Below are positions 1 to 42,612 of a DNA stretch of 64,000 nt, in pieces. Source of the stretch: Microbacterium sp. (GTDB lineage Bacteria > Actinomycetota > Actinomycetes > Actinomycetales > Microbacteriaceae); assembly GCA_019510305.1 (NCBI GenBank), contig JAEKKN010000023.1, positions 38,488-102,487 on the forward strand. Reading direction: 5' to 3'. The position numbers and the translations under genes were made by a program. Every line of letters begins with the position of its first letter. Position 1 is the first letter of the stretch. A model generated the notes under the pieces. The model had not been told where the DNA came from. It did not search any database and was given only the letters and a program-made list of their open reading frames with translations.

Positions 1-75
1 CTCGGCGAGAGGGTTCTCGAGGTCGACCGTGCGGACGGTCGCGCCTGTGAGGATGAGGTCGGCGATGGTCGTCAT
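1..75 (-). CDS. Amidohydrolase family protein, N-terminal fragment
   Basis: Only the first 25 codons lie in the window; the gene runs off the left edge. They include ADLILTGATVRTVD followed by NPLAE, the usual opening beta-strand region of YtcJ/imidazolonepropionase-like metal-dependent amidohydrolases. The ATG lies two bases after the stop of the upstream MoaF-domain gene. A GGAG eight bases before the ATG sits in the end of that gene, so the two are surely co-transcribed. Catalytic residues are outside the window, so substrate and exact subfamily cannot be judged. Confidence 0.6.
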   Translation of the reverse strand, partial: MTTIADLILTGATVRTVDLENPLAE

Positions 76-77
76 GT

Positions 78-917
78 TCAGCGCTCCAGGGCGCGTGCCG
101 GATCGTACTCGACGGGGTGGACGGTGTTCGACAGCAGGCGTCCGTGGGCGCCGAAGGTGAAGTGCGTCGGGGCGGTGCCCGACTCGTCCCAGCCGAACAG
201 CACGCCGTGCGAGCGGATCGCCTTCTGATCGCGGTGGTCGGCGATCGTCACCGAACCGCAGGGAATGACCTTCTCGCGCCAGGTGAAGACGTAGATGCCG
301 GGGCGGACCTTCCACACGGTGTTCGCGTCGGTGTCGGCGAGCCCCTGCTCGGGGCCGGCGAGGCACTGCCAGGTGTACCAGTGCGGCGACAGGTAGACGT
401 GCTCGTACGCGTGGGTGCTGGAGTACACCCACAGCACGCGGCGGCCGATGAGCTCCTCGGTCGGGGCCGGCGCTTCGCCGCGCGTCTCGATGCCCTCGAT
501 CAACCCGGGAACGAAGACCATCTGCACGGCGGTCTTGCCGGGAGAGGCCTGCCCGAGGATCGAGATGACCGAGAGCGCGTGGCCGCTGGCGAGGTCGAGG
601 ATCAGGGTGACGGCCTCGTTCGGCAGGTACTTGTGGTGGAACTGCGCGTAGAACAGGTCGTCGGCGACCTCGATCACCTCGCAGTCGTCTGTGTCCTCTG
701 CCGGGGCGGTCTCGTCGCCGGTTCCGGGTTCGTACTTCCAGCTGACGGTTCCGCGGCCGAACGTGTGCGTGACTCGGGTGCCGCGGTCATCGACCACGGT
801 GAACGTGCGGCCGTCGAGCGCGTCGCTGAGCTCGGCCTTGCTGGCGTCGAAGCCCGGTGCGAGGCCGTCGAGCGGCAGCCAGGTGGAGGTGTCGGACAGG
901 TTGACTACATCAGCCAT
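78..917 (-). CDS. MoaF-domain protein (first of two paralogues)
   Basis: A 279-residue soluble protein with no signal peptide. It has the two-part MoaF architecture: an N-terminal half with alternating beta-strands (residues about 1-140) and a C-terminal half with the family motif YEHVYLSPHWYTWQCLAG near residue 170, then a strand-rich WKVRPGIYVFTWREKVIP segment. MoaF is named from the Klebsiella moaEF operon, which belongs to the monoamine (tyramine oxidase) regulon; its biochemical role is not established, and the 'molybdenum cofactor' label in databases is doubtful. No moa/mog/moe genes are nearby. The start has a good GAAGGA six bases upstream. It lies between an APC permease (61 bp upstream) and an amidohydrolase (2 bp downstream), so a role in catabolism of an imported compound is likelier than cofactor synthesis. 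A paralogue lies at 10358-11146. Confidence 0.75.
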   Translation of the reverse strand: MADVVNLSDTSTWLPLDGLAPGFDASKAELSDALDGRTFTVVDDRGTRVTHTFGRGTVSWKYEPGTGDETAPAEDTDDCEVIEVADDLFYAQFHHKYLPNEAVTLILDLASGHALSVISILGQASPGKTAVQMVFVPGLIEGIETRGEAPAPTEELIGRRVLWVYSSTHAYEHVYLSPHWYTWQCLAGPEQGLADTDANTVWKVRPGIYVFTWREKVIPCGSVTIADHRDQKAIRSHGVLFGWDESGTAPTHFTFGAHGRLLSNTVHPVEYDPARALER

Positions 918-978
918 GAGGGTTCCTTCGTGGGTGGGGGTCGGATGCTGTGCGGTTCGGACGATGGGGCGAGGACGC

Positions 979-2427
979 TCAGCGCGTGCTGAACTTCTCG
1001 AGGTCGGTGGCGAGGCCGTCGTACACGGCCGGCCGAGACTTCTTCAGGTAGACGCCGTACACGATGCCGCCGATCACGGCGAGCACCAGAAGCAGCGGCA
1101 TGAGGCGGATGGCGAGCTCCTGCGAGCCGGCGACGATGTCGAAGTTCACGACCGCGAGGATCGAGATCGCCGCGATGCCGAGGAAACCGATTCCGGGGGC
1201 GATGAAGGTGCTCCACCACCTCGGGTCGCCCTTGCGGCGGAAGTACACGACGATCGAGATCGCGGCGAGGCCCTGCAGGATCAGGACGCTCAGGGTTCCG
1301 AATCCGAGCATCGCCGGCACCAGCGTGACGATCGGATCGGCTCCCGCGATCGCGAAGATGATCGCGACGACGGCGGCGAACGACGCCTGCACGATGCCGG
1401 CGAGCTGCGGGGCTCCGCTCGCGCGGGTGCGGGCGAGAGCCTGGGGCAGAATCCGGGCGCGGCCGAGCGAGTACAGGTAGCGGCTCGCCGAGTTGTGGAA
1501 GGCGAGCATCGCGGCGAACAGGCTCACCAGCAGCAGGATCATCATGACCGTCGTGAGGGGCCCACCGAGGTACTGCTGCGACAGCGTGAAGATGAGGTCG
1601 CCGGTCGGCAGATGCTCCAGGGCCGTGGCCTGCGCCTGGGCGACGCCGGTCGCGCTGACGACGGCCCACGTCGTGACACCGAGGATGACGCCGATCGCGA
1701 TGATCGCGGTGTAGGTGGCACGCGGGATCGTGCGCAGCGGCTGCTTGGCTTCTTCGCTGAACAGCGCGGTGGCCTCGAACCCCAGGAAGCCGGTCGCGGC
1801 GAGGAGCATGCCGATCGGCAGCGATCCCGAGAACACGGCCTCCGGGCTGAACGCGGCCACGTCGTAGCCGGTCTGCACCAGCACCGACACATCGAAGACG
1901 ACGAGCATCAACGTCTCGAGCACGAGGCACACGCCGAGCACCTTCGACGAGAAGTCGACGCCGATGCGTGCCAGCACGAAGCAGACGACGATCGACGCGA
2001 GCCCCCAGATCAGCCAGTGCACGTCGAGTCCGGTGAGGTCGCGGATGATCGTCTGCATGAAGAAGCCGCTCGTGCCGATCGTGCCGACGACGAAGAAGTT
2101 GTAGCCGAGGGTCGCGATGAGTCCCGCGATGAGACCGCCGGTGCGGCCGAGGCCCTTCACCACGAAGGCGTAGAAGCCGCCGGCGTTGACCAGTTGCTTC
2201 GACATCTGCGCGTAGCCGATCGCGAAGAGCAGGAGGATCCCCGCGACGAGGAAGAAGGACATCGGAGTGCCGCCGCCGTTGCCGAGTGCGACAGCCAGTG
2301 AGGCGACGACGACGATGCCGGTCAGCGGTGCGACGGCCGCCAGCACGAGGAAGACGATCCCGGCGACGCCCAGGGCACCGGGACGAAGAGCGGTGTGCTC
2401 GGTGGGCGGTGCGATCGAATCAGCCAC
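979..2427 (-). CDS. APC-superfamily amino acid/amine permease
   Basis: A 482-residue integral membrane protein with about 12 helices and the APC-family opening (ALGVAGIVFLVLAAVAPLTG, then an NAGGFYAFVVKGLGRTGG segment typical of the first two to three helices). It should import an amino acid, amine or related compound by proton or ion coupling. An in-frame ATG exists at 2481, but AAAGGAG lies five bases before a GTG at 2427, and the protein from there begins VADSIAPPTEH; I take the GTG. The gene is in line with the MoaF-domain gene and amidohydrolase downstream and divergent from two SDR genes, so it is the likely uptake step of this small pathway. The substrate is not predictable from sequence. 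Confidence 0.85.
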   Translation of the reverse strand: MADSIAPPTEHTALRPGALGVAGIVFLVLAAVAPLTGIVVVASLAVALGNGGGTPMSFFLVAGILLLFAIGYAQMSKQLVNAGGFYAFVVKGLGRTGGLIAGLIATLGYNFFVVGTIGTSGFFMQTIIRDLTGLDVHWLIWGLASIVVCFVLARIGVDFSSKVLGVCLVLETLMLVVFDVSVLVQTGYDVAAFSPEAVFSGSLPIGMLLAATGFLGFEATALFSEEAKQPLRTIPRATYTAIIAIGVILGVTTWAVVSATGVAQAQATALEHLPTGDLIFTLSQQYLGGPLTTVMMILLLVSLFAAMLAFHNSASRYLYSLGRARILPQALARTRASGAPQLAGIVQASFAAVVAIIFAIAGADPIVTLVPAMLGFGTLSVLILQGLAAISIVVYFRRKGDPRWWSTFIAPGIGFLGIAAISILAVVNFDIVAGSQELAIRLMPLLLVLAVIGGIVYGVYLKKSRPAVYDGLATDLEKFSTR

Positions 2428-2625
2428 GGCGACTCCTTTGTTCGGTGACGGCCGTGGGTTCGGAGAGCCTGCGCACGGCATCGACGACGAGGGGATCGTC
2501 GATAGAGCGAGTCTGCTCCGACGGCACTCGTCGCGCTTGACGCTGAGCGAAGGACGATGGTGCCAGGGTGCACAGCAGCGTCGCGGAGATAGGGGCGAGT
2601 GGATGCCGGGTAGCAGGATGACGGC

Positions 2626-3360
2626 ATGGATCTGCAGCTGCGCGGTACGAGCGCCCTCGTCACGGGCGCCGGGAGCGGCATCGGTCGCGCCGTGGCGTCG
2701 GCGCTCGCCGCGGAAGGCGTGCGGGTCGTGCTCCTCGACCGCGACGAGAGCGCCGTGCGCGATGCTGCCCGCTCGTGCCCGGATTCGATCGTCCTCGTCG
2801 CCGACGTCACCGACGAGGAGCAGACGTCCTCAGCACTCGTCTCTCTGGAGCGCCTGGATGCCGTGGTCTGCTGCGCCGGTATCTCCGGTCCCGTCGGCTC
2901 GGGCATAGAGGAGATCTCGCTCGGGGAATGGAACGCGGTCTTCGCCGTCAACGTCACGGGTCCCTTCCTCGTGCTGCGCCACGCGCTTCCTGCCCTGAGA
3001 GCGGCCGGCGCGGCATCCGTCGTCCTGGTATCCAGCGACTCCGCCTTCGTCGCCTCGCCGGGGATGGCGCCGTACTGCGCCTCGAAGGCGGCGCTCGTGC
3101 AGTTCGCGCGAGCCCTCTCCGTCGATCTCGCAGGCACCGGCATCCGGGTGAATACCGTCGCACCTTCGGTGGTCGACACTCCGATGAGCCGAGGCGATCT
3201 CGGCGACGCCGCGTTCGACGCGGCGGATTTCCCCGTGCAGACGGCAGACGAGGTGGCCGCCCACGTGGCCTATCTGGTGTCGCCGCGCAGTCGCGCGGTC
3301 AACGGAACCACCCTTCTCAGCGACTTCGGGTACACCGCCCGGTCGGGATTTCCCGCTTAG
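2626..3360 (+). CDS. SDR-family NAD(P)-dependent oxidoreductase
   Basis: A 244-residue classical short-chain dehydrogenase. The cofactor motif TGAGSGIG lies at residues 14-21, CCAGISG (variant NNAG) in the middle, the catalytic Ser in VLVSSDSAF, and the YCASK active-site pair (YxxxK) near residue 150. These enzymes interconvert an alcohol and a ketone. AGGA precedes the ATG by seven bases. It is divergent from the APC permease and 31 bp upstream of a second SDR, so both dehydrogenases probably act on intermediates of the same pathway. Confidence 0.85.
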   Translation: MDLQLRGTSALVTGAGSGIGRAVASALAAEGVRVVLLDRDESAVRDAARSCPDSIVLVADVTDEEQTSSALVSLERLDAVVCCAGISGPVGSGIEEISLGEWNAVFAVNVTGPFLVLRHALPALRAAGAASVVLVSSDSAFVASPGMAPYCASKAALVQFARALSVDLAGTGIRVNTVAPSVVDTPMSRGDLGDAAFDAADFPVQTADEVAAHVAYLVSPRSRAVNGTTLLSDFGYTARSGFPA

Positions 3361-3391
3361 CGCGCACGCGCCGAACAGACAGGAGCAGCAC

Positions 3392-4207
3392 ATGGGACTC
3401 GCAGTGGGATCGACGGTCTCGGGACGCGTCGTCGTCATCACCGGAGGGGGCACCGGCATCGGCGCCGCGATCGCCGAGCGGTATGCGGCCGAAGGCGCAC
3501 ACGTCGTCGTGGTGGGTCGCCGACCGGAGCCGCTAGAACGGGTCGCGAAGGCGGTCGGGGCGAGGACGATCGCGGCGGATGCGGCGGACACGGCCTCTGC
3601 GAAGGCCGCCGTCGCCGAGGTTCTCGCGACGTTCGGGCGCCTCGACGTGCTGGTCGCGAACGCCGGAGGCCACGGGTTCTCGCCCGTCGGCGAGACGGAT
3701 GACGCGGGGTGGGAAGCAGCGATCCGCGCCAACCTCACCACCGCCTTCATCATGGCGCGCGAGGCGCTGCCGGCGCTCTTGGAGTCGAAGGGGCAGATCG
3801 TGATCGTGTCGTCTCTCGCGGGACTCTTCGCTGGCCCCTCGGTCGCCGGCTACACCGTGGGCAAGCACGCTCTGATCGGCCTCACCCGCACCCTCGCCCG
3901 CGACTACGGCAAGCACGGCGTGCGCGTGAACGCCGTCTGCCCCGGGTGGGTGCAGACGCCGATGGCCGACGAGGAGATGGACGAGTTCGCCTCGCACGCG
4001 GGTCTCGTCTCCCGCGAAGAGGCGTATGCGGCGGTCACCGCCGATGTGCCGCTGCGACGACCGGCGCGCCCGGCCGAGATCGCCTCGGTCGTGCGGTTCC
4101 TGGGCTCGGGGGAGTCGTCGTACATCACCGGCTCTGTGATCGTCGCCGACGGCGGCTCGCACGTCGTGGACGTTCCGACCATCGCGTTTGATCACGCCGG
4201 GATGTAG
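3392..4207 (+). CDS. SDR-family oxidoreductase, second of the pair
   Basis: A 271-residue classical SDR with TGGGTGIG (residues about 17-24), VANAGG, a VSSLAG serine and YTVGK catalytic Tyr/Lys, followed by the PGWVQTPM substrate-loop region. AGGAG lies nine to ten bases before the ATG. Its end, with SGESSYITGSVIVADGG, matches the 3-oxoacyl-ACP-reductase-like SDR subgroup often used in catabolic operons. It follows the preceding SDR by 31 bp and they are almost certainly co-transcribed. The pair is only moderately similar, so they are probably sequential enzymes and not a recent duplication. Confidence 0.85.
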   Translation: MGLAVGSTVSGRVVVITGGGTGIGAAIAERYAAEGAHVVVVGRRPEPLERVAKAVGARTIAADAADTASAKAAVAEVLATFGRLDVLVANAGGHGFSPVGETDDAGWEAAIRANLTTAFIMAREALPALLESKGQIVIVSSLAGLFAGPSVAGYTVGKHALIGLTRTLARDYGKHGVRVNAVCPGWVQTPMADEEMDEFASHAGLVSREEAYAAVTADVPLRRPARPAEIASVVRFLGSGESSYITGSVIVADGGSHVVDVPTIAFDHAGM

Positions 4208-4254
4208 CGCCGCGAGGTCGCGTTCCCGGGTTCCTGGGCGGTCTGGACCCGGGT

Positions 4255-4450
4255 TCGGTCACGCGTCGGGCGGGTTCGGTGGAGGCATGGCCGCCGGATG
4301 TGTGACTGGAGCGCAGAGACGGTCACGGTTCAGGCGGCTTCCGCTGGGCTGAGTCGCCAGACGTGTGACTGGGGTGCGGAACTGGCCGCTGCCGGGGTGC
4401 CTTCGGCCGGGCCGCGAGATGTCCGCGACCAATGCCAGGGCGCTTGCGGC
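4255..4450. repeat. Degenerate tandem repeat of about 63 bp in an intergenic gap
   Basis: The 247-bp gap between the second SDR and the HAD gene holds no ORF I can support. It contains two clear, imperfect units whose best-conserved core, GTGTGACTGG, recurs at 4300-4309 and 4363-4372 (period 63). Flanking GGCGG-TTC-G-GG and C-GCC-GA-G-GTG words are also repeated. A third, weaker unit beginning GGTGCCTTCGG follows at about 4398. The cores resemble intergenic repeat debris. The core is seen directly; calling it a repeat family is inference. Confidence 0.45.
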
Positions 4451-4454
4451 GGGC

Positions 4455-5105
4455 TCAGCCGACCGTGAGCTCGAACCCGTCGGCGGTCGCGACGACGGCC
4501 ACCTGAGTGAGGTCGTCGACGTGGTGTTCGGGAGAGTGTGCGACCGCGTGCGCACCGACGCCGATCACACGCATGCCCGCAGCGTGGGCGGCCTGGATGC
4601 CGGCACCCGAGTCCTCGAAGACGATGCAGTCGGCCGGGTCGACGCCGAGCGTCTTCGCACCCAGCAGGAACCCTTCGGGGTCGGGCTTCGAGCGCGTCAC
4701 GTTCTCGGCGGTCACCGCGGTCGTCGGCACGACGAGATCCGCGGCGCCCATGCGGGCATTCATCAGCCGCAGGTCGGCCGACGTCACGATCGCGTGCGCG
4801 TGGGGCCGGAGCGCCTCGAGCAGCACGTCTGCTCCGGCGATCGCGACGACGCCGTCGACGTCCTTCGCCTCGTTCGCGAGCATCGAGGCGTTCTCGGCGA
4901 TGTTGATGGCGTGATCGCGCTCGGGCAGCATGATCGCCATGCTCTGGTGACCCTGGCGCCCGTGGATGACGCTGAGCACGTGCGCGGGATCGAGTCCGTG
5001 CGGCTCTGCCCACGCCAGCCAGATGCGCTCGACGGCGGCCGTCGAATCGACGAGGGTCCCGTCCATGTCGAGGAGGACGGCGCGGGCGTGGACGGTCTCG
5101 GTCAT
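4455..5105 (-). CDS. HAD-superfamily phosphatase (glycerol-3-/sugar-phosphatase type)
   Basis: A 216-residue haloacid-dehalogenase-like hydrolase. Motif I is DMDGT at residues 13-17 (two Asp nucleophile/acid), motif II is the TSA of IVTSADL, motif III lysine is in RSKPDPEGF, and motif IV is VFEDSGAG. An alpha-helical cap of the subclass I type follows motif I. Members of this subgroup dephosphorylate small sugar or polyol phosphates. TAGCCT lies six bases before the ATG with no Shine-Dalgarno, which suggests a leaderless transcript of its own, separate from the ABC transporter 116 bp upstream. Confidence 0.8.
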   Translation of the reverse strand: MTETVHARAVLLDMDGTLVDSTAAVERIWLAWAEPHGLDPAHVLSVIHGRQGHQSMAIMLPERDHAINIAENASMLANEAKDVDGVVAIAGADVLLEALRPHAHAIVTSADLRLMNARMGAADLVVPTTAVTAENVTRSKPDPEGFLLGAKTLGVDPADCIVFEDSGAGIQAAHAAGMRVIGVGAHAVAHSPEHHVDDLTQVAVVATADGFELTVG

Positions 5106-5221
5106 GCTCTCAGGCTAGCGTCCCGGGCTGAGCGCCCCTGCGGAGCTTCCCGTGCGAGAATCGTCGCCCCGAGAGCTGCGCAGGACGGCGATCCCCGTGA
5201 CATGAACGGATACTGATCCGC

Positions 5222-5914
5222 TCAGCCGCCGAGATACGCGCGGTGCAGCAACTCGGGATCGGACTTGAGCTGCTCCGACGTCCCCTGGAACGAGACCTGA
5301 CCGCCGGCGACGACGACGGCCTCGCGGGCGAGGCTCAGCGCGAGCTGGGTGAACTGCTCGACCAGCAGCACGCCGACGCCCGACTCGGCGATGGACTTCA
5401 CGATCGGCATGAGCCGCATGAAGACCACGGGGGCAAGGCCCAGCGACATCTCGTCGATCAGCAGCACACGTGGTTTCGCCGCGAAGGCCCGTGCGAGCAC
5501 GACCATCTGCTGCTCACCGCCCGACAGCAGCGCTGTCGGCGAGTCGATCCGCTTCTCGAGTTCGGGGAACTGCTCGAGCGCGGCGTCCAGCTCAGCCGGA
5601 GTCCGCGCGGTGAGCGAGATGTTCTCGCGCACCGTCAGCGATGGGAACACCGCCCGGCCCTGCTCGATGTGCACGATCCCGCGGCGGGCACGGGCGACGC
5701 GCGAGAGCTTGTCGATGGCCTCGCCGTCGAGGGTGAGCGTGCCGGCGGAGTGCGGAGTCACCCCCGACACGGACTCGATCAGACTGGTCTTGCCCGCGCC
5801 GTTCGGCCCGACGAGCGCGAGCACCTCTCCGCCGCGCACGGTGAGCGACACGTCGGAGATCACCGGCCCAGCTCCACGGCTGACGGTCACGCCGTCCAGG
5901 ACGAGTTCACTCAT
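5222..5914 (-). CDS. livF: Branched-chain amino acid-type ABC transporter, ATPase LivF
   Basis: A 230-residue ATPase with all motifs intact: Walker A GPNGAGKT near residue 36, Q-loop region HIEQGRAVFPSLTV (the LivF-type sequence), signature LLSGGEQQM, Walker B VLLIDEMSLGLAP and a switch-region LLVEQF. It is one of the two ATPases energising uptake. The ATG at 5914 overlaps the stop of the preceding permease-ATPase fusion by four bases (ATGA), which fixes the start against longer upstream options. It is the last gene of the transporter operon. HAAT transporters carry branched-chain amino acids but also urea, amides and aromatic acids, so the substrate is open. Confidence 0.92.
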   Translation of the reverse strand: MSELVLDGVTVSRGAGPVISDVSLTVRGGEVLALVGPNGAGKTSLIESVSGVTPHSAGTLTLDGEAIDKLSRVARARRGIVHIEQGRAVFPSLTVRENISLTARTPAELDAALEQFPELEKRIDSPTALLSGGEQQMVVLARAFAAKPRVLLIDEMSLGLAPVVFMRLMPIVKSIAESGVGVLLVEQFTQLALSLAREAVVVAGGQVSFQGTSEQLKSDPELLHRAYLGG

Positions 5915-7683
5915 GACAGCAGCTCCGTCTCTCCCATGTACGCCTTCACGACGTCGGGGTTCGCCAGCACCTCGGCCTGCGGGCCGCTCGCCAGCACTCG
6001 ACCGAAGTCGAGCACGGTGAGCATCGGGCACACCGAGCGCACGAGGTCGAGGTCGTGCTCGATGATGATCAGTGCGATGCCGTAGCGCCCGGGGAGCTCC
6101 CGCAGCCGTGCCGCGAGCGCCAGGTGCTCCTCGTGCGACAGGCCCGCGGCCGGCTCGTCGAGGATGAGCAGTCGGGGGCGCGCGATCACGTTCGCCGCGA
6201 CTTCGACCAGCCTCCGGGTGCCGACGTCGACGCTCGACAGGCGAGCCTTGGCCGGCGGGCAGCCGAAGAACTCCAGGACCTCGTCGATGTCGGATGCCGC
6301 GAGCCGCCGCCGCGCCACGAAGCGCACGTAGGCTCCGACGGTGAGCGCCGGCGGCACACGATCCTGCTGGAACGTGCGCCGAAGACCCAGGCGGGCGCGC
6401 CTCGTGGGGGAGAGGCCGGCGAGGTCGCGACCGCCCAGAAGCACGCGGCCGCCGTGCTTCGGCAGGAATCCGCCGATCGCGTCGACGAACGTCGACTTGC
6501 CGGCCCCGTTCGGCCCGATGAGGCCCATGATCGACGCGCTCGGCACCTGGAACGACACATCATCGAGGGCCTTCAGCGCCCCGAACTGCACCGTGAGCCC
6601 TTCGACGGTGAGCACGGGCGCGCCGTCGAGAGCGGCCTCGTCGACGGTCGCCGTGGTCGTGGTGGTGATGACCGCTGCATCGGCTTCGGCATCCGGAGGC
6701 AACGCCGTCAGCGCCGCGCCCGCGGTCCTGCGGTCCGCGCGGCGCCAGATCAGATCGCGGACGGTCTGTCCCAGGTTCGTGCCGCTGGTCAGAGCCTGCA
6801 CGCCGAGCACGCCGAAGACGACGAAGCCCCAGTTCTGGTCGATGCCCCACCGCTTGAGGAGCTCCGGCACGAGCACCCAGAGGATGCCGCCGAGGATCGC
6901 CATGTCGATGAGGTGCGCGCCCGACATGATCGCCAGGACATAGAGCGCGAGCGACTGCAGCGGAGTGAAGCTCGAGGCGAAGGGCAGTTGCACCTGGCCC
7001 GCGAGGAGACCACCGGCGATCCCGCCGAGGGCCGCTGACACGGCGAACGCCGTGAGCTTCGCGACCTGCACGCTCTGTCCTGCCGCCGCGGTGCCGCGCT
7101 CGGAGAAGGCGACGGCCTTCCACGACGAGCCCCAGCGCCCTCGCTGGAGGAAGAACACGCCGAGACCGCAGACGGCGAGCACGACGACGGAGAGGAAGAA
7201 GAACTGCCGGTCGTTCGAGAACAGCTCCGGGCGCTCGATCGAGGTGCCGTCGACAGAACCGGGGAACTGGATCTGCACGAGCGTGACGTCGGCTGCGGCG
7301 GCGAATCCCAGGGTGACGACCGCGAGATTCACTCCGCGCAGGCGCAGCGCCGGCAGCCCGACGATGATGCCCACGAGACCGGCGGCTATGCCGCCGAGCA
7401 CAAGCCAGACGACGAACCCGCCCGGCGCCTGCATCACGTTCAACAGCGAGACGATCCACGCGCCGACGGCCGCGAAGGTGAGCTGGCACAGGGCGATCAT
7501 CCCGGCCGAGCCGGTGACGATCCCGAGTCCGAGGATGGCGATGGCCGCGACGACCGCGCTGATCGCCAGGAAGACGAAATAGCCGGGCAGGGCGGCGCTG
7601 AGGATCGCGCCGATGCCGACGGCGGCTGCCGCGACGGCGAACGGCCAGGTGGACTTGAACCAGGAGCGGTCAGCGAGCGGCAT
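5911..7683 (-). CDS. livM-livG: LivM-LivG fusion: HAAT permease joined to ATPase
   Basis: A 590-residue fusion. Residues about 1-310 form a LivM-like permease with about ten hydrophobic segments and the family sequence GLPALRLRGVNLAVVTLGFA. An Ala/Thr-rich linker follows (about 325-350, including ITTTTTATVDE). The rest is a LivG-type ATPase with Walker A GPNGAGKS near residue 395, RRTFQQDRVPPALTV after it, and Walker B LLILDEPAAGLS. The signature region reads LSSVDVGTRRLVEVA where LivG proteins normally have LSYGQQRRLEIA, so this ATPase site looks degenerate. AAGGAGG precedes the ATG by six bases; the gene overlaps livH by 14 bases and livF by four. The fusion pairs one permease half with one ATPase half, leaving LivH and LivF as separate partners. 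Confidence 0.9.
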   Translation of the reverse strand: MPLADRSWFKSTWPFAVAAAAVGIGAILSAALPGYFVFLAISAVVAAIAILGLGIVTGSAGMIALCQLTFAAVGAWIVSLLNVMQAPGGFVVWLVLGGIAAGLVGIIVGLPALRLRGVNLAVVTLGFAAAADVTLVQIQFPGSVDGTSIERPELFSNDRQFFFLSVVVLAVCGLGVFFLQRGRWGSSWKAVAFSERGTAAAGQSVQVAKLTAFAVSAALGGIAGGLLAGQVQLPFASSFTPLQSLALYVLAIMSGAHLIDMAILGGILWVLVPELLKRWGIDQNWGFVVFGVLGVQALTSGTNLGQTVRDLIWRRADRRTAGAALTALPPDAEADAAVITTTTTATVDEAALDGAPVLTVEGLTVQFGALKALDDVSFQVPSASIMGLIGPNGAGKSTFVDAIGGFLPKHGGRVLLGGRDLAGLSPTRRARLGLRRTFQQDRVPPALTVGAYVRFVARRRLAASDIDEVLEFFGCPPAKARLSSVDVGTRRLVEVAANVIARPRLLILDEPAAGLSHEEHLALAARLRELPGRYGIALIIIEHDLDLVRSVCPMLTVLDFGRVLASGPQAEVLANPDVVKAYMGETELLS

Positions 7684-8530
7684 CCCACACCTCCTTGCGC
7701 TGGGTCCACAGCAACAGGACCACGATGAACAGGAACGGGAGGAAGTTGCGCACCAGGGCGACCTCGTCGAGCTGCGCGACCAGGCCGCCGAGCACGCCCA
7801 GCACGATGCCGCCGACGACGGCGAGGTCGAGCCGGCGGAAGCCGCCGAGCAGCGCGGCGGCAGCAGCGGGCACGATGAGCATCGAGAGCCCGGTGGCGTC
7901 GCTGGACTGCGTCGGCGCGACGATGATGATCGCGATGGCGCTGATGACTCCGGTGACGAACCACACCGAGATCGACAGCGGGCGGGAGCGGATGCCGAGC
8001 AGCTCCGCCGTGGTCGGACGCTCGGACAGCGCCCTCAGCTGCGTGCCCACCCTCGTGCGGCGGAGGACGACGCGAACGACCACCGCGGCCACGACCGCCA
8101 TCAGCACCGTGGCGACGGTCACCTGGCTGACGACGACGCCGCCGAACGAGAATGCCGGTCCCGCGATGATCGGCGTGAACGGCTGCGGTTTGTTGCCGAA
8201 CAGGATGAACGACAGCGAGATCAGCAGGAGCAGAGGTCCGACGGTCATCGCCGAGCGGGTCGTCGTGGACGCCTCCGAGAGCCAGGTCGCGGCGATCCAT
8301 CCGATCGCCGCCGACAGGAGCCCGGCGACGAGGATCCCGATGATCGAGCCGAGCCAGATCGGCAGGCCCAGTCTGCTCACGAACCACACGGCCGTGAACG
8401 CGCCGAACATCCCCGTGGCGGCCTGAGCGAAGTTGACGACCCGCACGAGGCGGCTCATCAGCGTCAGGCACACGCCGAGGACGGCGTAGAGTCCGCCGGC
8501 GGCGAGTCCGGCTATGGCGCCTTGCAGCAT
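7670..8530 (-). CDS. livH: HAAT ABC transporter permease LivH
   Basis: A 286-residue permease with about eight hydrophobic segments. Family features are GLYAVLGVCLTLMSRLVRVVNFAQ near the N-terminus (usually RVINFAHG) and RRTRVGTQLRALSERPTTAELLGI, the cytoplasmic coupling loop. AAAGGA precedes the ATG by six bases. It forms the membrane channel with the LivM half of the fusion protein. It is separated from the binding-protein gene upstream by 181 bp holding a large inverted repeat, so the transporter core and the binding protein may be expressed at different levels. Confidence 0.9.
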   Translation of the reverse strand: MLQGAIAGLAAGGLYAVLGVCLTLMSRLVRVVNFAQAATGMFGAFTAVWFVSRLGLPIWLGSIIGILVAGLLSAAIGWIAATWLSEASTTTRSAMTVGPLLLLISLSFILFGNKPQPFTPIIAGPAFSFGGVVVSQVTVATVLMAVVAAVVVRVVLRRTRVGTQLRALSERPTTAELLGIRSRPLSISVWFVTGVISAIAIIIVAPTQSSDATGLSMLIVPAAAAALLGGFRRLDLAVVGGIVLGVLGGLVAQLDEVALVRNFLPFLFIVVLLLWTQRKEVWDAAR

Positions 8531-8570
8531 GAGGCGTCCTTTCTGATCTGAGGGGTTCGAGCGGGCACTC

Positions 8571-8699
8571 CCGGTCGTTGAGCGAGGGAGCGAAGCGACC
8601 GAGACGAAACGCGTCAGCTGGCGTACGACGTCGGATGACGCGTTTCGTCTCGCTTCGCTCGCTCAACGACCGGGGAGGGCCCCTCGCTCAACGACCGGG
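8571..8699. repeat. Large inverted repeat of a palindromic interspersed element
   Basis: 8571-8616 reads CGGTCGTTGAGCGAGG onward to GAGACGAAACGCGTCA. 8636-8673 is the same element in reverse, lacking about eight bases of the middle. A third partial copy (CTCGCTCAACGACCGG) sits at 8682-8697. The arms can fold into a long hairpin with a loop at 8617-8635. It lies between the solute-binding-protein gene and livH within one operon. Related copies occur at 41521-41613 and 61541-61598. Likely effects are 3'-end stabilisation of the binding-protein mRNA or partial termination. Confidence 0.85.
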
Positions 8700-8711
8700 A
8701 GCGAAGAGCGA

Positions 8712-9878
8712 CTATTCACCGATGCGCAGCCAGTCTTCGGAGACCTTCTCCCAAGCGTTCGTGCCGGATTTCAAGATGATCGGCCAGCCGGCGGTGTTCT
8801 GCGTGCCGAACGCGTAGGGCGTTCCCACCATCGGGTTGTCGATCGGGTCCATGCCCTGCAGCGCCTTCGTCACGCTCTCGCGGGTGATGTCGCCCTTGAT
8901 GGACTTCAGCACCTCGATGAAGTACGTCGCGGCGAGGTAGCCGCCCTGGCTGAACGACGTGAGCGGGATGTCGTTCTTCTCCATCAGCGCCCGCCAGTCC
9001 TTGTTGATGTCGTTGTCGTCGGTGAACGGATAGAACTCGGCAGGCACGTAGATGCCGGCGCCCGCGTTGTCGACCGCCTTCGCGAAGTTCTCGCTGTAGA
9101 CGCTGGTGAGGTAGAGCCAGGTCACGTCGTCCCAACCCTGTGCGTTGGCGGCCTTGACCTGACCGATCGCGTCGGGCTCGACGGGGTTGATCGCGAGAGC
9201 CTTGCAGCCCTGCTCACGCGCCTTCACGATGTACGGCGTGTAGTCGGATGCTCCGTAGGGCACGGTGTCGTCGACGTACTTCGGCTTCTTGCCGGTGATC
9301 TCGGTCCACTTGTCGATCGCGGCCTGGTAGGTCGGCCGGGTGGAGCCGGCGATCTCGAGAAGCACGCAGATGTCGTCGAGGCCGAGGACCTCAGATCCGT
9401 ACTGCAGCGTCAGGGTCATGTCGTTGAACGGTCCGACGTTCGCAGGCGAGATGTTCTCGCTGTCGAAGCATCCCGTGTCCACGCCGATGCCGGGAATGGA
9501 GAGGATGCTCTCCTGCTCGTAGTACTTGGCGTTGATCTCGCACTCGATGAGGCTGGCCGAGCCGACGAGCGCGACCGCTCCGTCGCTGCCGACCAGTTCT
9601 CGGGCCGACGCCGTCGCCGTGGCGGGATCGCCCTTGTCGTCGAGCGCCTTGTACTCGATCTTCTGGCCGTTCAGACCACCTTCTTCGTTGAAGGCGTCGA
9701 ACACGGCTGCCGCCGCCTGCGACGCCTCCGGGAATGTCGCCGGGCCGCTGATCGTGTTGACGGATCCGACGACGATCGAACCGCCCCCGCTGCCGGATCC
9801 ACCGTCATCGGCGCAGCCGGACAGGATGAGGGCTGCCACGGCGAAAAGGGCCGCGGTGCCTGCTACTCGCTTGTTCAT
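8712..9878 (-). CDS. HAAT ABC transporter substrate-binding lipoprotein
   Basis: A 388-residue extracytoplasmic binding protein of the type 1 (leucine/amide-binding) fold. It has a lipoprotein signal with lipobox LSGC (Cys22) followed by a Gly/Ser-rich linker, then IVVGSVNTISGPATFPEASQ and an ALVGSASLIE segment that usually contacts ligand carboxylates. It captures ligand outside the membrane and feeds LivH/LivM. It lacks any residue set that I could use to assign a specific ligand. It is 43 bp downstream of the SnoaL-like gene and upstream of the inverted repeat. Confidence 0.9.
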   Translation of the reverse strand: MNKRVAGTAALFAVAALILSGCADDGGSGSGGGSIVVGSVNTISGPATFPEASQAAAAVFDAFNEEGGLNGQKIEYKALDDKGDPATATASARELVGSDGAVALVGSASLIECEINAKYYEQESILSIPGIGVDTGCFDSENISPANVGPFNDMTLTLQYGSEVLGLDDICVLLEIAGSTRPTYQAAIDKWTEITGKKPKYVDDTVPYGASDYTPYIVKAREQGCKALAINPVEPDAIGQVKAANAQGWDDVTWLYLTSVYSENFAKAVDNAGAGIYVPAEFYPFTDDNDINKDWRALMEKNDIPLTSFSQGGYLAATYFIEVLKSIKGDITRESVTKALQGMDPIDNPMVGTPYAFGTQNTAGWPIILKSGTNAWEKVSEDWLRIGE

Positions 9879-9921
9879 GTGCGTTGTTGCCTCTCGGTTC
9901 TCGGGTGTTGCTGTGTGTCGT

Positions 9922-10311
9922 TCAGTCGCGCAGTGCGCGATTGACCAGCTCGGTGTCGGTGAACTGCTCGAACGCGGCGACCCGCCCGTCGGTCAGCCGC
10001 CAGACGTGCGCGACGCGCGCGGCGAAGAAGCGCCCCGTCCGGATGTAGGTGCCGGAGTACGTGCCGATGCCGACGACGACGTCTCCGCCGTCGATGACCT
10101 CGTCGATCGCGAGCGTGTAGTCGTCCCACTCCTCCTGGATGCGCTGGAACACGTTGGCGGCGACGGCATCCGGTCCGACGTAGGTGCCTGCGTACGGGAA
10201 TCCCGCAGCCTCCGTCCACTGCACATCGTCGGCCAGCGGCGCCAGCATCCCCTCGAGGTCTCCTCGGTCGCTGGCGGCGTAGTGGGCGAGGATGATGTCT
10301 GCGTTCCTCAT
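9922..10311 (-). CDS. SnoaL-like (NTF2 fold) protein
   Basis: A 129-residue cone-shaped alpha+beta protein of the SnoaL-like nuclear transport factor 2 family. It opens with MRNADIILAHYAASDRGD, has the typical GMLAPLADDVQWTEAAGFP segment, and ends with AHVWRLTDGRVAAFEQFTD. Family members are small isomerases, hydrolases or dehydratases with an internal pocket, or ligand-binding proteins. AAGGAGA six bases before the ATG at 10311 defines the start. It sits between the second MoaF-domain gene and the binding protein, so it is likely an enzyme of the same pathway. Confidence 0.8.
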   Translation of the reverse strand: MRNADIILAHYAASDRGDLEGMLAPLADDVQWTEAAGFPYAGTYVGPDAVAANVFQRIQEEWDDYTLAIDEVIDGGDVVVGIGTYSGTYIRTGRFFAARVAHVWRLTDGRVAAFEQFTDTELVNRALRD

Positions 10312-10333
10312 CTGATCTCCTTCTGTTCCTTCT

Positions 10334-10356
10334 GGGTCCCTGAGCCTGTGGAAGGG
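10334..10356. repeat. Short interspersed repeat (CAGGCTCAGGGACCC type)
   Basis: This 23-bp element reads, on the minus strand, CCCTTC-CA-CAGGCTCAGGGACCC. It fills most of the 46-bp gap between the second MoaF-domain gene and the SnoaL-like gene. An almost identical copy (21 of 23 bases) lies inside hisS at 60897-60919. It resembles the TTCGACAGGCTCAGGGA repeats that I recall as common in Microbacteriaceae genomes. Confidence 0.75.
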
Positions 10357-10357
10357 G

Positions 10358-11146
10358 TCACACCGGCTGGGCGTCGGGGTAGGAGACGGAGCCGAGCGGG
10401 TAGATGTGGCCTCCTGCACGGGAGTGCTCGGCGTCGCCGTCGCCGTTGAGGCCGAGGAAGATCCCCGTGGTCATGAGCTGATAGCCGAGGTCGTGCAGCC
10501 AGACGCTGGCGACAGCGATGCGGAACTCGCGGAAGCAGAAGAGGTACAGGCCGTCGGCGAACTTCCACACGGTCGACAGGTCCATGTCGCCGTGACCGCG
10601 CTGCACCCCCTCCAGGCACTGCCACGCGTAGCGAAGGCTGGAGACGTAGACGTGCTCGTAGAGATGGTGCGGGCTGTAGCGGTATACGTTGCGCTTGCCG
10701 ATGAGATCGCGGCTCGGCCCTGGAACCTCGCCCGTCGCCGGACCACGGTCGGTGGTCGCGGCCCAGAAGTCCTGACCGACCTGCGGAACGCCCTCCACCG
10801 CCTCGGCGGCGATACGGGAGCGGACCACGGTCGCGCGGTGGGTCGTGGTCGAGTAGACGACGGTGATCGCTTCGCGTTCACGGCTCTCGAGAGGGATGTT
10901 CACGAACACGACGTCATCTCGCACGGCGACCGCATCGTAGGGGTCGGTTCCGGCCGCCTCGAATCCGGTCCAGGTGACGGCCACGGAATCGAAGGAGAGC
11001 GCGAGGATCGAGCCGTCGTCGAGTGTCAGCGTGAGGGCCGTGCCGGCGAGGGTCGTGTTCGGCAGGCGGAACGCGTCGATTCCGGCGGCGAACTCGTCGT
11101 AGGTGCGCCACTCATCGAGCGCCGGGTCTGTGGAGATGTCGGCCAT
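10358..11146 (-). CDS. MoaF-domain protein (second paralogue)
   Basis: A 262-residue paralogue of the MoaF-domain protein at 78-917. It keeps the C-terminal motif YEHVYVSSLRYAWQCLEG, the DLIGKRNVYRYSPHH segment before it, and WKFADGLYLFCFREFRI after it. It is the first gene of the group that continues with the SnoaL-like protein, binding protein and LivH/LivMG/LivF. AGGAC lies four bases before the ATG. Two divergent MoaF copies at the two ends of one locus suggest different ligands or a heteromer; neither is proven. The AraC regulator encoded 274 bp upstream on the same strand is the most likely controller. Confidence 0.75.
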   Translation of the reverse strand: MADISTDPALDEWRTYDEFAAGIDAFRLPNTTLAGTALTLTLDDGSILALSFDSVAVTWTGFEAAGTDPYDAVAVRDDVVFVNIPLESREREAITVVYSTTTHRATVVRSRIAAEAVEGVPQVGQDFWAATTDRGPATGEVPGPSRDLIGKRNVYRYSPHHLYEHVYVSSLRYAWQCLEGVQRGHGDMDLSTVWKFADGLYLFCFREFRIAVASVWLHDLGYQLMTTGIFLGLNGDGDAEHSRAGGHIYPLGSVSYPDAQPV

Positions 11147-11324
11147 GGGTGTCCTGACGTCGCACGCGGCGGAGCGTCGTCGCTCCGGGCACCGCGGCTT
11201 CGCGATGCGCTTGCCTCATGCTCGATCCGAGAGGGGCATCCGCTCAAGGCGTGCGCGACCATCGCGCGCCGAGAGTCAAACGGCGTGCCCTCCGGGGCAA
11301 GTCGGCTGGAGAGCAAAGTCCCCG

Positions 11325-11360
11325 CGCGTGCCACCATCGACGCTGCGCGCCACCGTCGAG
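11325..11360. promoter_or_regulatory. Possible AraC-type direct-repeat operator
   Basis: The gap 11147-11420 holds no ORF I trust. Within it, CCACCATCGA (11331-11340) and CCACCGTCGA (11350-11359) form a direct repeat spaced 19 bp, each preceded by a GCGCG word. Tandem half-sites about two helical turns apart are typical of AraC-family binding, and the regulator is encoded next to this gap. The spacing is slightly short and the words are GC-rich, so chance similarity is possible. Confidence 0.25.
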
Positions 11361-11420
11361 TGGACGTCGGGATCGTGGTGGCGTGTCCGGATCCGGGTGG
11401 CGGAGCGGATGCCGGGGGCG

Positions 11421-12377
11421 TCAGTGCGCGGCGCGGTACTCGCTGGGGGATACGCCGAAGGTGGTCTTGAACGCGCGGCTGAAGTGCGCGGCATCCACGA
11501 AGCCCCACCGTGCGGCGATCGCGGCGACCGGGCGATCGGCCAGCATCGGGTCGAGCAGATCGCGGCGGCACTGCTCGAGGCGGCGTGTGCGGATCCACGT
11601 GGACACCGTGACGCCCTGCTCCTGGAACAGGCCGTGCAGATGGCGGGTCGAGATGTAGTGCGCAGACGCGATCGACGCGGGGCCGAGGTCGGTCGACGCG
11701 AGATTGCGCTCGATGTAGGAGCGGATGCGCTGCACCAGGGCGCGGTGCGGGTCGGCGGACACCTCATCGAGTCCGAGCTCGCGGGTGAAGACCGTCGAGA
11801 CCAGATCGAGGGCGCTGTGGGCGAGGCGCGCCCCGGTCGTGCCTGCGAGCTGATCGAGGTTGCCGGCCAGTTGCGTCAGGTAGGGAACCACCATGCTCCC
11901 CAGCCCCTCCTGCCCTGAGATCCGTACGGCGGTGAGCTGGCCGATCATCTCAGGAGGCAGGCTGATCAGGTGCTTCGGGAACATCACGACCATGGTGCGG
12001 AAGTCTTCGTCGAACACCAGGGAATACGGGCGATCGGTGTCGTACACCGCGAGATCGCCCGGGCGCAGCACCGCCTCGCGGTCGTCCTGGATGAGCATGC
12101 CGGTTCCGGCGAGCATCAGGCTCACCTTGAAGAACGAGCGGTCGCCTCGGGCGATGAGCTCGGGCGTGCGCTCGACGACGTGGGAGGTCGCGCGCAGGTC
12201 GGTGACGTGGACCTCGTCGACGGATGCTGCGCGGATCATGCCGCGGAAATGGTCGGGTCCGCTGCTGGACACCTGGAGGGGGACGAACGACTCCGACACC
12301 GCGGCGCGGAAATCGCTGATGTTGCGCGCGATGAGAGTCGACACCGATTCGGCGGAGGCCATGGGTGCACCGTTCAT
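11421..12377 (-). CDS. AraC-family transcriptional regulator
   Basis: A 318-residue regulator. Residues about 30-190 match the AraC-binding-like domain (AraC_binding_2 type, as in NahR-like/MoaR-like catabolic activators), including LAVYDTDRPYSLVFDEDFRTM. Residues about 215-318 form the double helix-turn-helix with RWGFVDAAHFSRAFKTTFG and the final GVSPSEYRAAH. GAGGTGATC precedes the ATG at 12377; a second ATG five codons in is possible. It lies upstream of, and in line with, the MoaF/SnoaL/ABC transporter group and probably activates it in response to the pathway substrate. Confidence 0.85.
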   Translation of the reverse strand: MNGAPMASAESVSTLIARNISDFRAAVSESFVPLQVSSSGPDHFRGMIRAASVDEVHVTDLRATSHVVERTPELIARGDRSFFKVSLMLAGTGMLIQDDREAVLRPGDLAVYDTDRPYSLVFDEDFRTMVVMFPKHLISLPPEMIGQLTAVRISGQEGLGSMVVPYLTQLAGNLDQLAGTTGARLAHSALDLVSTVFTRELGLDEVSADPHRALVQRIRSYIERNLASTDLGPASIASAHYISTRHLHGLFQEQGVTVSTWIRTRRLEQCRRDLLDPMLADRPVAAIAARWGFVDAAHFSRAFKTTFGVSPSEYRAAH

Positions 12378-20148: not shown

Positions 20149-20733
20149 TCAGGAGCGCCAGGGGGCGAGGATGCTGTCGAGCACCGCGATGTGGGCGGCG
20201 GCATCCTGCGGCTCGGTCACTTCGACGACCTGCTGGCCATAGGTGATCGAGCGGAGCAGGGCCATCACGGCCTCGGTCGGGGTTCCCGCTGCGAGTTCGC
20301 CGTCGGCGACCGCTTCGGCGAGCGCGCTGCGGATTCCGCTCTGCCAGGTCGCGAGCGTCGGCGCCGCGGCGTCGGGTGCCGATGCGAGTGTGGCGAGGCG
20401 GCCCCAGAACCCGACGACGACACGCGCTTCTGCGCGGGTGCGGTCGTCGACCGGCAGTACTTCGCGCATGAGCGCATCGAGGCGGGCGAGGCCTCTGAGG
20501 CCGGCCGTGGCGATCGTGATGCGCTCGTCGGTGCGGCGGGTCACCTCGGCGGCTGCGGCGCGGATGACCTCGTCGAATCCGTCGAAATAATGCCAGAGCG
20601 ATCCGGTGGCGACGCCGAGCTCCTTCGCGACGGCGCGCGATGACACGTTCTCGTGGCCGTCCCGTGCGGCGACGGCGAGCAGCGCCTCGGCGATCTGCCG
20701 GCGGCGCTCATCGTGATCGACGACGCGGGGCAC
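20149..20733 (-). CDS. TetR-family transcriptional regulator
   Basis: A 194-residue one-component repressor. The N-terminal helix-turn-helix domain includes SSRAVAKELGVATGSLWHYF, with a C-terminal ligand-binding helical domain. I choose the GTG at 20733: CAGGAT lies exactly six bases before it, a spacing shared with other leaderless starts here. The ATG at 20751 is an alternative. It is divergent from a small membrane-protein gene and upstream of the amine oxidase. Nearly identical operators at 20771-20786 and 19908-19923 imply that it represses itself, the amine oxidase and probably the divergent gene. The inducer may be the amine or its aldehyde (inference). Confidence 0.82.
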   Translation of the reverse strand: MPRVVDHDERRRQIAEALLAVAARDGHENVSSRAVAKELGVATGSLWHYFDGFDEVIRAAAAEVTRRTDERITIATAGLRGLARLDALMREVLPVDDRTRAEARVVVGFWGRLATLASAPDAAAPTLATWQSGIRSALAEAVADGELAAGTPTEAVMALLRSITYGQQVVEVTEPQDAAAHIAVLDSILAPWRS

Positions 20734-42138: not shown

Positions 42139-42612
42139 TCAGCCGCGAAGGTCGCGGATGACCAGAGCGGTGCGGAGCGCAGCATCCGCCGCCTCCGCTC
42201 CCTTGTCCTCCTTGGAGCCTTCGATGCCCGCGCGATCGAGACCCTGCTGTTCGTCGTCGAGGGTGAGCACACCGAAGCCGACCGGCTTGCCCGCGTCGAG
42301 CGAGACCCGGGTGAGCCCGTCGGTCGTGGCCGACGAGACGTACTCGAAGTGGGGTGTGCCGCCGCGGATGATCACACCGAGAGCGACCACCGCATCCGCT
42401 CCGCCGGCGAAGGCCGCCTGCGCCGCCACCGCGAGTTCGAACGAACCCGGTACCCGCACCAGGCGATGCGTCGCCTGCGCGGCGTTCAGAACGCGCTCGG
42501 CTCCGGCGATCAGGCCGTCCGTGATGACCTCGTGCCAGGTGCCGGCGATGATGACGACGTTCAGCCCGCGTCCGTCGATGTTCCCGGCCTGTGGAGCTCC
42601 TGCGCCGCTCAT
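42139..42612 (-). CDS. ribH: 6,7-dimethyl-8-ribityllumazine synthase
   Basis: A 157-residue lumazine synthase. VVIIAGTWHEVITDGLIAGA is the N-terminal strand-helix, RVPGSFELAVAAQ the phosphate site, and ALGVIIRGGTPHFEYVSS carries the catalytic His. It condenses the DHBP product of RibB with the pyrimidine from RibD and the GTP cyclohydrolase route. Its ATG overlaps the ribBA stop by four bases. It is the last gene of the riboswitch-controlled operon. Confidence 0.97.
   Translation of the reverse strand: MSGAGAPQAGNIDGRGLNVVIIAGTWHEVITDGLIAGAERVLNAAQATHRLVRVPGSFELAVAAQAAFAGGADAVVALGVIIRGGTPHFEYVSSATTDGLTRVSLDAGKPVGFGVLTLDDEQQGLDRAGIEGSKEDKGAEAADAALRTALVIRDLRG

Follow-up and report, generated by a model that had tools for sequence, protein, structure and literature searches.

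We analyzed a 64,000-nucleotide stretch of a Microbacterium sp. genome (assembly GCA_019510305.1, contig JAEKKN010000023.1, positions 38,488 to 102,487 of the forward strand), here called the window, in which two genes with MoaF domains, MoaF1 and MoaF2, lie among genes for transporters, oxidoreductases and regulators. Annotations still label MoaF a molybdenum cofactor protein. On balance we think it probable that this locus serves the uptake and catabolism of aromatic monoamines of the tyramine or octopamine type, and that MoaF acts in it as a cofactor-free acid-base enzyme on para-hydroxyaryl intermediates. MoaF tracks homoprotocatechuate genes and amine oxidases and shares a glutamate with the phenolic acid decarboxylases (PADs), which would make it a testable enzyme with a short substrate list.

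Across one set of 249 genomes of the family, we scored four gene families, namely MoaF, HpaD (the homoprotocatechuate ring-cleaving dioxygenase), copper amine oxidase (CuAO) and MoaC; these genomes are not independent, and counts by genus are the safer ones. HpaD exceeded the cut-off in 24 of the 25 genomes with MoaF compared with 71 of the 224 others (p 2e-10), the lone MoaF genome without it (G156) being a draft that is 88% complete. By genus, the figures are 13/13 for MoaF genera and 27/72 for the others (p 1.6e-5), and in 16/25 genomes HpaD lies on the same contig within 50 kb of MoaF. In the co-occurrence check on amine oxidases across the family that the initial annotation had proposed, CuAO is more frequent in MoaF genomes (18/25 vs. 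57/224, p 6e-6), and in 17 of the 25 the two are no more than 20 kb apart. MoaC, the sole cofactor gene scored, is not associated with MoaF either by genome (12/25 vs. 140/224, p 0.20) or by genus (9/13 vs. 46/72, p 1.0), and is missing from 13/25 MoaF genomes; MoaF thus does not follow MoaC. The same annotation had named two outcomes that would speak against it, an unconserved neighbourhood and co-occurrence with cofactor genes: the neighbourhood is conserved, as described below, and the MoaC counts show no such co-occurrence. Its remark that the locus holds no molybdenum cofactor genes also agrees with our data, in which none was seen in the locus and MoaC lies on another contig of the same genome (C27). 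Of its proposed pathway for an amine- or amide-containing nutrient, the amine part has good support and narrows to aromatic monoamines degraded by way of homoprotocatechuate or phenylacetate; the proposal as a whole is supported in part, since the amidohydrolase lies outside positions 78-12377 and the binding or conversion of an intermediate by MoaF is still inferred.

The genes concerned were placed by Pfam scans and a codon-based gene call, as follows.

1..75, minus strand: amidohydrolase, first 25 codons (gene call; the rest lies outside the window, C84:36916-38562; the orthologue is a Pfam Amidohydro_3 protein)
78..917, minus strand: MoaF1, 279 aa (Pfam MoaF_C, E 9e-51, residues 151-265; MoaF_N, E 1e-28, residues 11-121)
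979..2427, start possibly 2481, minus strand: APC-type permease (Pfam AA_permease_2, E 2e-23)
2626..3360, plus strand: SDR1, a short-chain dehydrogenase/reductase (SDR) oxidoreductase (Pfam)
3392..4207, plus strand: SDR2, an SDR oxidoreductase (Pfam)
4455..5105, minus strand: HAD phosphatase-like protein (Pfam)
5222..5914, minus strand: LivF-type ATPase of a HAAT importer (Pfam ABC_tran, scanned as 5222-6031; start from the gene call)
5911..7683, minus strand: LivM-type permease fused to a LivG-type ATPase, LivMG (Pfam BPD_transp_2, ABC_tran, BCA_ABC_TP_C)
7670..8530, minus strand: LivH-type permease (Pfam BPD_transp_2)
8712..9878, minus strand: substrate-binding protein of the HAAT importer (Pfam Peripla_BP_6)
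9922..10311, minus strand: SnoaL/NTF2-like protein (Pfam SnoaL_2, E 3e-17)
10358..11146, minus strand: MoaF2, 262 aa (Pfam MoaF_C, E 4e-34)
11421..12377, minus strand: AraC-type regulator (Pfam)
17914..19890, minus strand: CuAO of the phenylethylamine-oxidase type (Pfam, E 2e-151)
20149..20733, minus strand: TetR-type regulator adjoining the amine oxidase (Pfam TetR_C_6, E 7e-7)

The Pfam scans and gene call bear out the content first described for positions 78-12377 (two MoaF genes, APC permease, two SDRs, HAD protein, HAAT importer, SnoaL protein and AraC regulator) as well as the CuAO at 17914-19890. The amidohydrolase also listed there was not found within 78-12377, since that gene begins at window position 75 and extends to the left beyond the window's edge. 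In MoaF1 and MoaF2, both MoaF domains (PF10703 and PF17409) exceed the curated cut-offs. The HAAT importer is complete, with its binding protein, two permeases and two ATPases; the binding protein has weak matches in the PDB to Leu/Ile/Val-binding proteins. The NCBIfam ethanolamine permease model scores the APC permease far under its own cut-off. The nearest PDB sequences to the CuAO are those of phenylethylamine oxidase (E ~1e-189), whose solved structure we take to be from Arthrobacter. A distance of 7.6 kb separates the starts of the HMM matches of CuAO and MoaF2, with AraC, DUF998, MFS and other genes in between. A third MoaF gene of the same genome is clustered with an APC permease, a cupin, a flavin amine oxidase, an aldehyde dehydrogenase (ALDH) and an SDR pair (62% identical to SDR2 and 45% to SDR1), so that the copper enzyme is replaced there by an unrelated amine oxidase. 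This cluster, at L033:9458-13403 (C86, about 75.5-79.4 kb), with the SDR pair behind it, looks like a second amine locus.

MoaF is patchily distributed, being present in 25/249 genomes of the family, in 39/149 of the genus and in 4/396 of a sample of the phylum (two of the four from the same genus). Of the 149 genomes of the genus, 19 have matches of the MoaF1 and MoaF2 types at a distance of 7.6 to 19.7 kb from each other, which suggests pairing beyond chance. The best named match to MoaF1 is that of M. hydrocarbonoxydans C1-2 (95% identical). From 502 relatives in named genomes we surveyed the best 80, all of which have a MoaF1-type gene, with flanks of up to 10 kb per side; both flanks were full in 59 of these loci, so that the neighbour counts are lower bounds. 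The most constant neighbours among the 80 were SDR1 (at least 67 loci), the amidohydrolase (at least 66), SDR2 (at least 65), the APC permease (at least 55) and LivMG (at least 47). Rarer partners were MoaF2 (at least 26), a GMC oxidoreductase and ALDH (at least 25 each), CuAO (at least 24), SnoaL (at least 23), HAD (at least 19) and a sulfatase (at least 16). The order AraC, MoaF2, SnoaL, binding protein, LivH, LivMG, LivF, SDR2, SDR1, MoaF1, amidohydrolase is common to Amycolatopsis regifaucium (L116) and Actinocrispum wychmicini (L134), which belong to another family. The blocks of both species lack APC and HAD, and in A. regifaucium CuAO stands directly before MoaF1. Overall, the partners of MoaF1 tend to be the amidohydrolase, the APC permease and an amine oxidase, and those of MoaF2 SnoaL, the HAAT importer and AraC, with a GMC or zinc alcohol dehydrogenase in several loci.

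Related arrangements occur on plasmids. MoaF matches occur in 42 plasmid records, 12 of which were examined, together with a second stretch of one; one was unannotated. Rhizobium and Agrobacterium stretches (L140, L148, L149, L150) and one of Roseateles (L143) carry, in the same order, an SDR, MoaF, an NTF2-like gene (which thus follows MoaF in these genera too), a helix-turn-helix regulator (annotated AraC in L148) and a HAAT importer; GMC and ALDH genes are present in four of the five. Homoprotocatechuate or 4-hydroxyphenylacetate genes are present in the stretches L143, L148 and L149 and absent from L140 and L150. On pTC2 of P. aurescens TC1, about 32 kb (79.8 to 111.4 kb) hold CuAO, an amidohydrolase, two MoaF genes, a permease, an FAD monooxygenase, HpaG/E/D/H/I, phenylacetaldehyde dehydrogenase, an SDR, an APH-type kinase, a class III pyridoxal phosphate (PLP) enzyme and AraC. 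Hpa genes thus accompany MoaF on four plasmids, three of which (pTC2, L143, L149) have the kinase and class III PLP gene too. Klebsiella and two Pseudomonas plasmids carry MoaF with an SDR plus a permease and/or a class III PLP enzyme; in Arthrobacter YC-RL1, APC and TetR genes accompany MoaF, as do an SDR, an APC permease and a LuxR-type regulator in Azoarcus. LuxR-type regulators stand beside MoaF on plasmids L141 and L144. The annotations of the plasmid stretches examined name no cofactor gene.

MoaF1 and MoaF2 are 32% identical. In a tree of 60 MoaF proteins, drawn from 141 by thinning at 78% identity and unsure for the long branches L026, L056, L041 and L027, they fall into separate clades (support 95/98 and 100/99), and the MoaF2 clade takes in proteins of Rhizobium and Roseateles. 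Because the clades are separate and supported, and one of them reaches these genera, the two are, judged from sequence, ancient paralogues that tend to keep their own partners. The N- and C-terminal MoaF domains represent an internal duplication (hhalign probability 94%), and AlphaFold2 (AF2) models of both proteins are confident (pLDDT 91.9 for MoaF1 and 92.7 for MoaF2). A full-length homologue has been solved, PDB 4q51, the MoaF of Burkholderia cenocepacia (titled putative cofactor protein F; 30-32% identity, TM 0.81-0.88). Residues were counted in 141 proteins, left after removal of eight duplicates from 149; of 139 genes labelled MoaF, five that were split or truncated at a contig end had been left out for length. 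Glu215 (MoaF1 numbering) is invariant (141/141), and Tyr165, Tyr171, Glu172, His173, Tyr175 and Trp183 are kept in 139, the two exceptions being deleted there. These exceptions are two proteins of genus g84 (L027:1003-1749 and L028:1450-2151) that lack ~39 residues spanning Tyr165-Trp183 and keep Glu215; they are either natural variants or decaying genes. From this conservation, Glu215, Tyr165 and Tyr171 are candidates for an active site.

Searches for structural relatives point to the PADs. A profile of 31 MoaF proteins gave five matches at E up to 10 among 177,635 PDB sequences: 4q51, a protein named OT3 and three PADs (E 0.16-0.41). With Foldseek, both models matched many PADs at probability 1.0, ranked below 4q51, and for MoaF2 PADs make up most of the rows at this probability. 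The alignment concerns the C-terminal domain, the N-terminal one faring far worse (1.9% vs. 16.4%). In both the profile and the hhalign alignments, Glu215 falls on the catalytic Glu of PAD, and of the two catalytic Tyr of PAD it is the second that pairs with Tyr165. At the position of the PAD catalytic Arg (193), MoaF has Leu in 101 proteins, His in 36, Ala and Gln in one each and a gap in two. The C-terminal domain of MoaF is thus probably a calycin-type domain and a remote relative of PAD, in which the Glu and one Tyr, and not the Arg, are kept. MoaF is unlike the PADs (PF05870; PDB 2p8g, 4alb, 2gc9, 3nx1) in its two tandem domains, and PF05870 found no match in MoaF1 or MoaF2 in the Pfam scan at E 0.001. 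Plain membership of the PAD family was rejected on account of this missing match and the lost Arg.

The chemistry of PADs suggests what such a domain might do. According to excerpts of three papers (PMC5488193, PMC10116590, PMC13358373), the Tyr pair of PAD deprotonates or holds the phenol oxygen and the Glu is the general acid-base; PADs also hydrate 4-hydroxystyrenes via a quinone methide, an activity lost in the Glu72Ala, Tyr19Phe or Tyr21Phe variants. If a PAD-like domain hydrates via a quinone methide, then the reverse reaction could remove the benzylic hydroxyl of a para-hydroxyaryl substrate without a cofactor. In the pathway we propose, phenethylamine-type amines, tyramine and dopamine and, by inference, the beta-hydroxylated octopamine, noradrenaline and synephrine, perhaps in N-acylated or O-sulfated form as well, would enter through the APC permease and the HAAT importer, to judge by the families of these transporters. 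CuAO followed by an aldehyde dehydrogenase would yield arylacetates, which would pass into homoprotocatechuate meta-cleavage or the phenylacetate pathway, as gene content and linkage in many genomes suggest. MoaF would work on a para-hydroxyaryl intermediate via a quinone methide, most likely removing the benzylic hydroxyl; its input might alternatively be a glycol formed by amine oxidation and SDR reduction, its output being the arylacetaldehyde that the pathway needs. SDR1 and SDR2 would adjust the redox state or stereochemistry at the same part of the molecule. Loss of a benzylic hydroxyl agrees with the benzylic CH2 that the homoprotocatechuate route requires, with the constancy of the SDRs as partners, and with the existence of MoaF loci without an annotated amine oxidase.

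The locus resembles the monoamine regulon of Klebsiella aerogenes (moaR, moaEF, tyn, maoCA, atsBA), in which MoaE is an SDR: in both, MoaF is clustered with an SDR and an amine oxidase is nearby. It differs in that AraC and TetR stand in place of the LuxR-type MoaR, and in carrying paralogous MoaF1 and MoaF2, transporters of the HAAT and APC types and an amidohydrolase. The actinobacterial locus appears, from its gene content, to be a new variant of the monoamine system, set apart by its paired MoaF genes, its two importer types and its different regulators. In Klebsiella, the moaEF operon and the monoamine regulon have been known since 1995-96 (PMC6813237; PMC9386226, in extracts), and the regulon, which includes atsBA and moaEF, answers to tyramine, dopamine, octopamine and norepinephrine (PMC6813237). 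In M. hydrocarbonoxydans C1-2 (L057) and M. suaedae (L062), both relatives of the window's genome, a sulfatase stands beside the MoaF1 block, past the amidohydrolase. Near this block, the survey of 80 loci also shows an FGE-type sulfatase-modifying protein (5 loci) and an NMT1-type binding protein (12) along with the sulfatase (16), as at L099:13333-19059; the sulfatase recalls the arylsulfatase of the Klebsiella regulon. No sulfatase was recognized in L034 or among the scanned window genes, which are part of the genes of the window. Extracts of other papers bear on MoaF elsewhere: in P. fluorescens F113, a LuxR solo represses its linked operon early in growth and a MoaF promoter was cloned for such tests (PMC8546723); a protein table of B. 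thailandensis has a MoaF protein and 3,4-dihydroxyphenylacetate 2,3-dioxygenase both raised (PMC12322963); and short exported proteins with a MoaF domain have been described (PMC8967166).

A further hint to the substrate comes from the PLP enzymes. L050, from genus g15 of the family, and L143 (Roseateles) each have a PLP enzyme close to MoaF2 whose nearest solved structure is the phospholyase 5g4i (E 1e-154 and 6e-120, respectively), the second nearest being the ethanolamine-phosphate phospho-lyase 6tor, and an APH-type kinase adjoins it. Close copies (82% identical) lie near MoaF2 in two further g15 genomes (G158 and G208); on pTC2, the PLP enzyme is 59% identical to that of L050, with an APH-type kinase close by; and the pair of L149 is known by annotation alone. 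The pTC2 enzyme (L159:11938-13278; CP000476.1:105937-107277) has 446 aa, the length of the 5g4i chain, and lies ~3.3 kb from a MoaF gene, close to the Hpa genes; in nature it may act on an aryl amino-alcohol phosphate. Kinase and phospho-lyase together form a known route from 1,2-amino alcohols to aldehydes, and their presence near MoaF thus suggests beta-hydroxy arylamines, degraded by an amino-alcohol route, as substrates.

A narrower and rather doubtful version of the proposal would make MoaF a dehydratase of octopamine, noradrenaline and synephrine (and of arylglycols), that is, a cofactor-free hydro-lyase with a duplicated PAD-like domain that acts via a para-quinone methide. The products would be 4-hydroxyphenylacetaldehyde and ammonia or methylamine, and MoaF1 and MoaF2 would differ by the rest of the substrate (primary or secondary amine, or amine or glycol). 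To our knowledge, octopamine dehydratase and synephrine dehydratase (EC 4.2.1.87 and 4.2.1.88) have no assigned genes. Theirs is a chemistry that MoaF could perform, feeding 4-hydroxyphenylacetaldehyde into the pathway, and there is no sequence link to them. Within the open-licence PMC literature, we found no paper containing these enzyme names and, in the part of the MoaF papers covered, none that assigns MoaF a reaction. If correct, the dehydratase proposal would give genes to two activities that lack them and a function to a misnamed protein; it would supply genes for the bacterial breakdown of octopamine, synephrine and noradrenaline, with a bearing on biogenic-amine chemistry in soil, plants and guts and on annotation.

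Several observations weigh against an acid-base enzyme of aromatic monoamine catabolism. By genus, CuAO is not significantly associated with MoaF (9/13 vs. 31/72, p 0.13); its co-occurrence alone is weak at this level, and the linkage is carried by proximity. The window's genome has its HpaD on another contig, and the nearest ring pathway to the locus is paa, which needs no para-hydroxyl group. In single-sequence searches of the PDB, MoaF1 found one PAD (E 0.84) and MoaF2 none at E up to 1; the hhalign probability for PAD is just 16-20%; and in Foldseek the PADs have E above 1e-3 and are outranked by BFA1 (for MoaF1) and 5hal (for both models), with avidins also appearing. At the position of the first PAD Tyr, the 141 MoaF proteins have mostly Trp (89), then Tyr (41), Phe (8), Asn (1) or a gap (2). 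If MoaF is a lyase acting on a benzylic hydroxyl, it is hard to see what the two SDRs and the SnoaL protein are for. The regulators of the window are AraC and TetR rather than a LuxR-type MoaR. The kinase/phospho-lyase pair is near MoaF in few lineages (2/80 named loci, by BLAST), the window's genome has only a 35% match to the PLP enzyme, elsewhere in the genome, and where present the pair could do the work proposed for MoaF.

Some of these observations would suit a MoaF that is not catalytic at all but a lipocalin-like binder, sequestering or delivering reactive aryl aldehydes between the amine oxidase, the SDRs and the aldehyde dehydrogenase. The models are indeed beta-rich, calycin-type and internally duplicated, avidins and BFA1 are among the fold neighbours, and MoaF often lies beside enzymes that make or use aldehydes. 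The enzyme-like conservation of polar residues from Tyr165 to Glu215, and the prevalence of PADs, which are enzymes, among the top Foldseek rows for MoaF2, make us regard such a binder as unlikely. We judge it similarly unlikely that MoaF serves another branch as an isomerase (tautomerase) or decarboxylase, which might act on a beta-keto amine made by the SDRs, convert 4-hydroxymandelaldehyde to 2,4'-dihydroxyacetophenone, or use a hydroxycinnamate freed from hydroxycinnamoyl amides by the amidohydrolase. The remote likeness to PAD, the SDR genes as the most constant partners (67/80 and 65/80), the amidohydrolase in 66/80 loci and the presence of a cupin gene close to MoaF in two loci, in one case annotated as a member of the 2,4'-dihydroxyacetophenone dioxygenase family, are in line with this. 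However, the PAD Arg is replaced by Leu or His in 137 of the 139 MoaF proteins with a residue there, which argues against cinnamate decarboxylation, and the linkage to HpaD suggests that the final product has a benzylic CH2, which argues against a ketone route to benzoates.

The locus might instead serve a non-amine nutrient, such as an aryl alcohol or N-acyl compound, the amine oxidase being a chance neighbour. The plasmid loci of Rhizobium and Roseateles, with their GMC oxidoreductase and ALDH and no annotated amine oxidase in the stretch, would accord with this, but the closeness of CuAO to MoaF in 17/25 genomes and its presence in 24/80 named loci, the flavin amine oxidase with the third MoaF, and the four lineages in which a kinase and a class III PLP gene are paired near MoaF render it distinctly improbable. 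A part in molybdenum cofactor synthesis, for which only the name speaks, is hardly conceivable given the lack of association with MoaC, its absence from about half of the MoaF genomes (13/25) and the annotated plasmid stretches, which name no cofactor gene. In an extract of PMC11540253, a Cupriavidus moaF is likewise called unrelated to the molybdenum cofactor, but as a fluoride transporter, and perhaps is another gene.

Other proteins of the locus gave less specific results. A role of the ephedrine-dehydrogenase type was considered for SDR1 and SDR2, and the PDB matches of both are unspecific. A role as N-formamide deformylase was considered for the amidohydrolase, to which the nearest solved structures are uncharacterized hydrolases. 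To the left of the locus, the same genome carries an aldehyde dehydrogenase, a GMC oxidoreductase and a phenylacetate (paa) cluster. The paa genes lie at L034:90-6752 (C84:20090-26752), with PaaK and PaaZ over the cut-off, a thiolase and a hydratase, and a Dak1/PTS EI-type group sits between them and the amine locus. Further into the window, positions 42139-43871 hold the riboflavin genes RibH and RibBA (Pfam).

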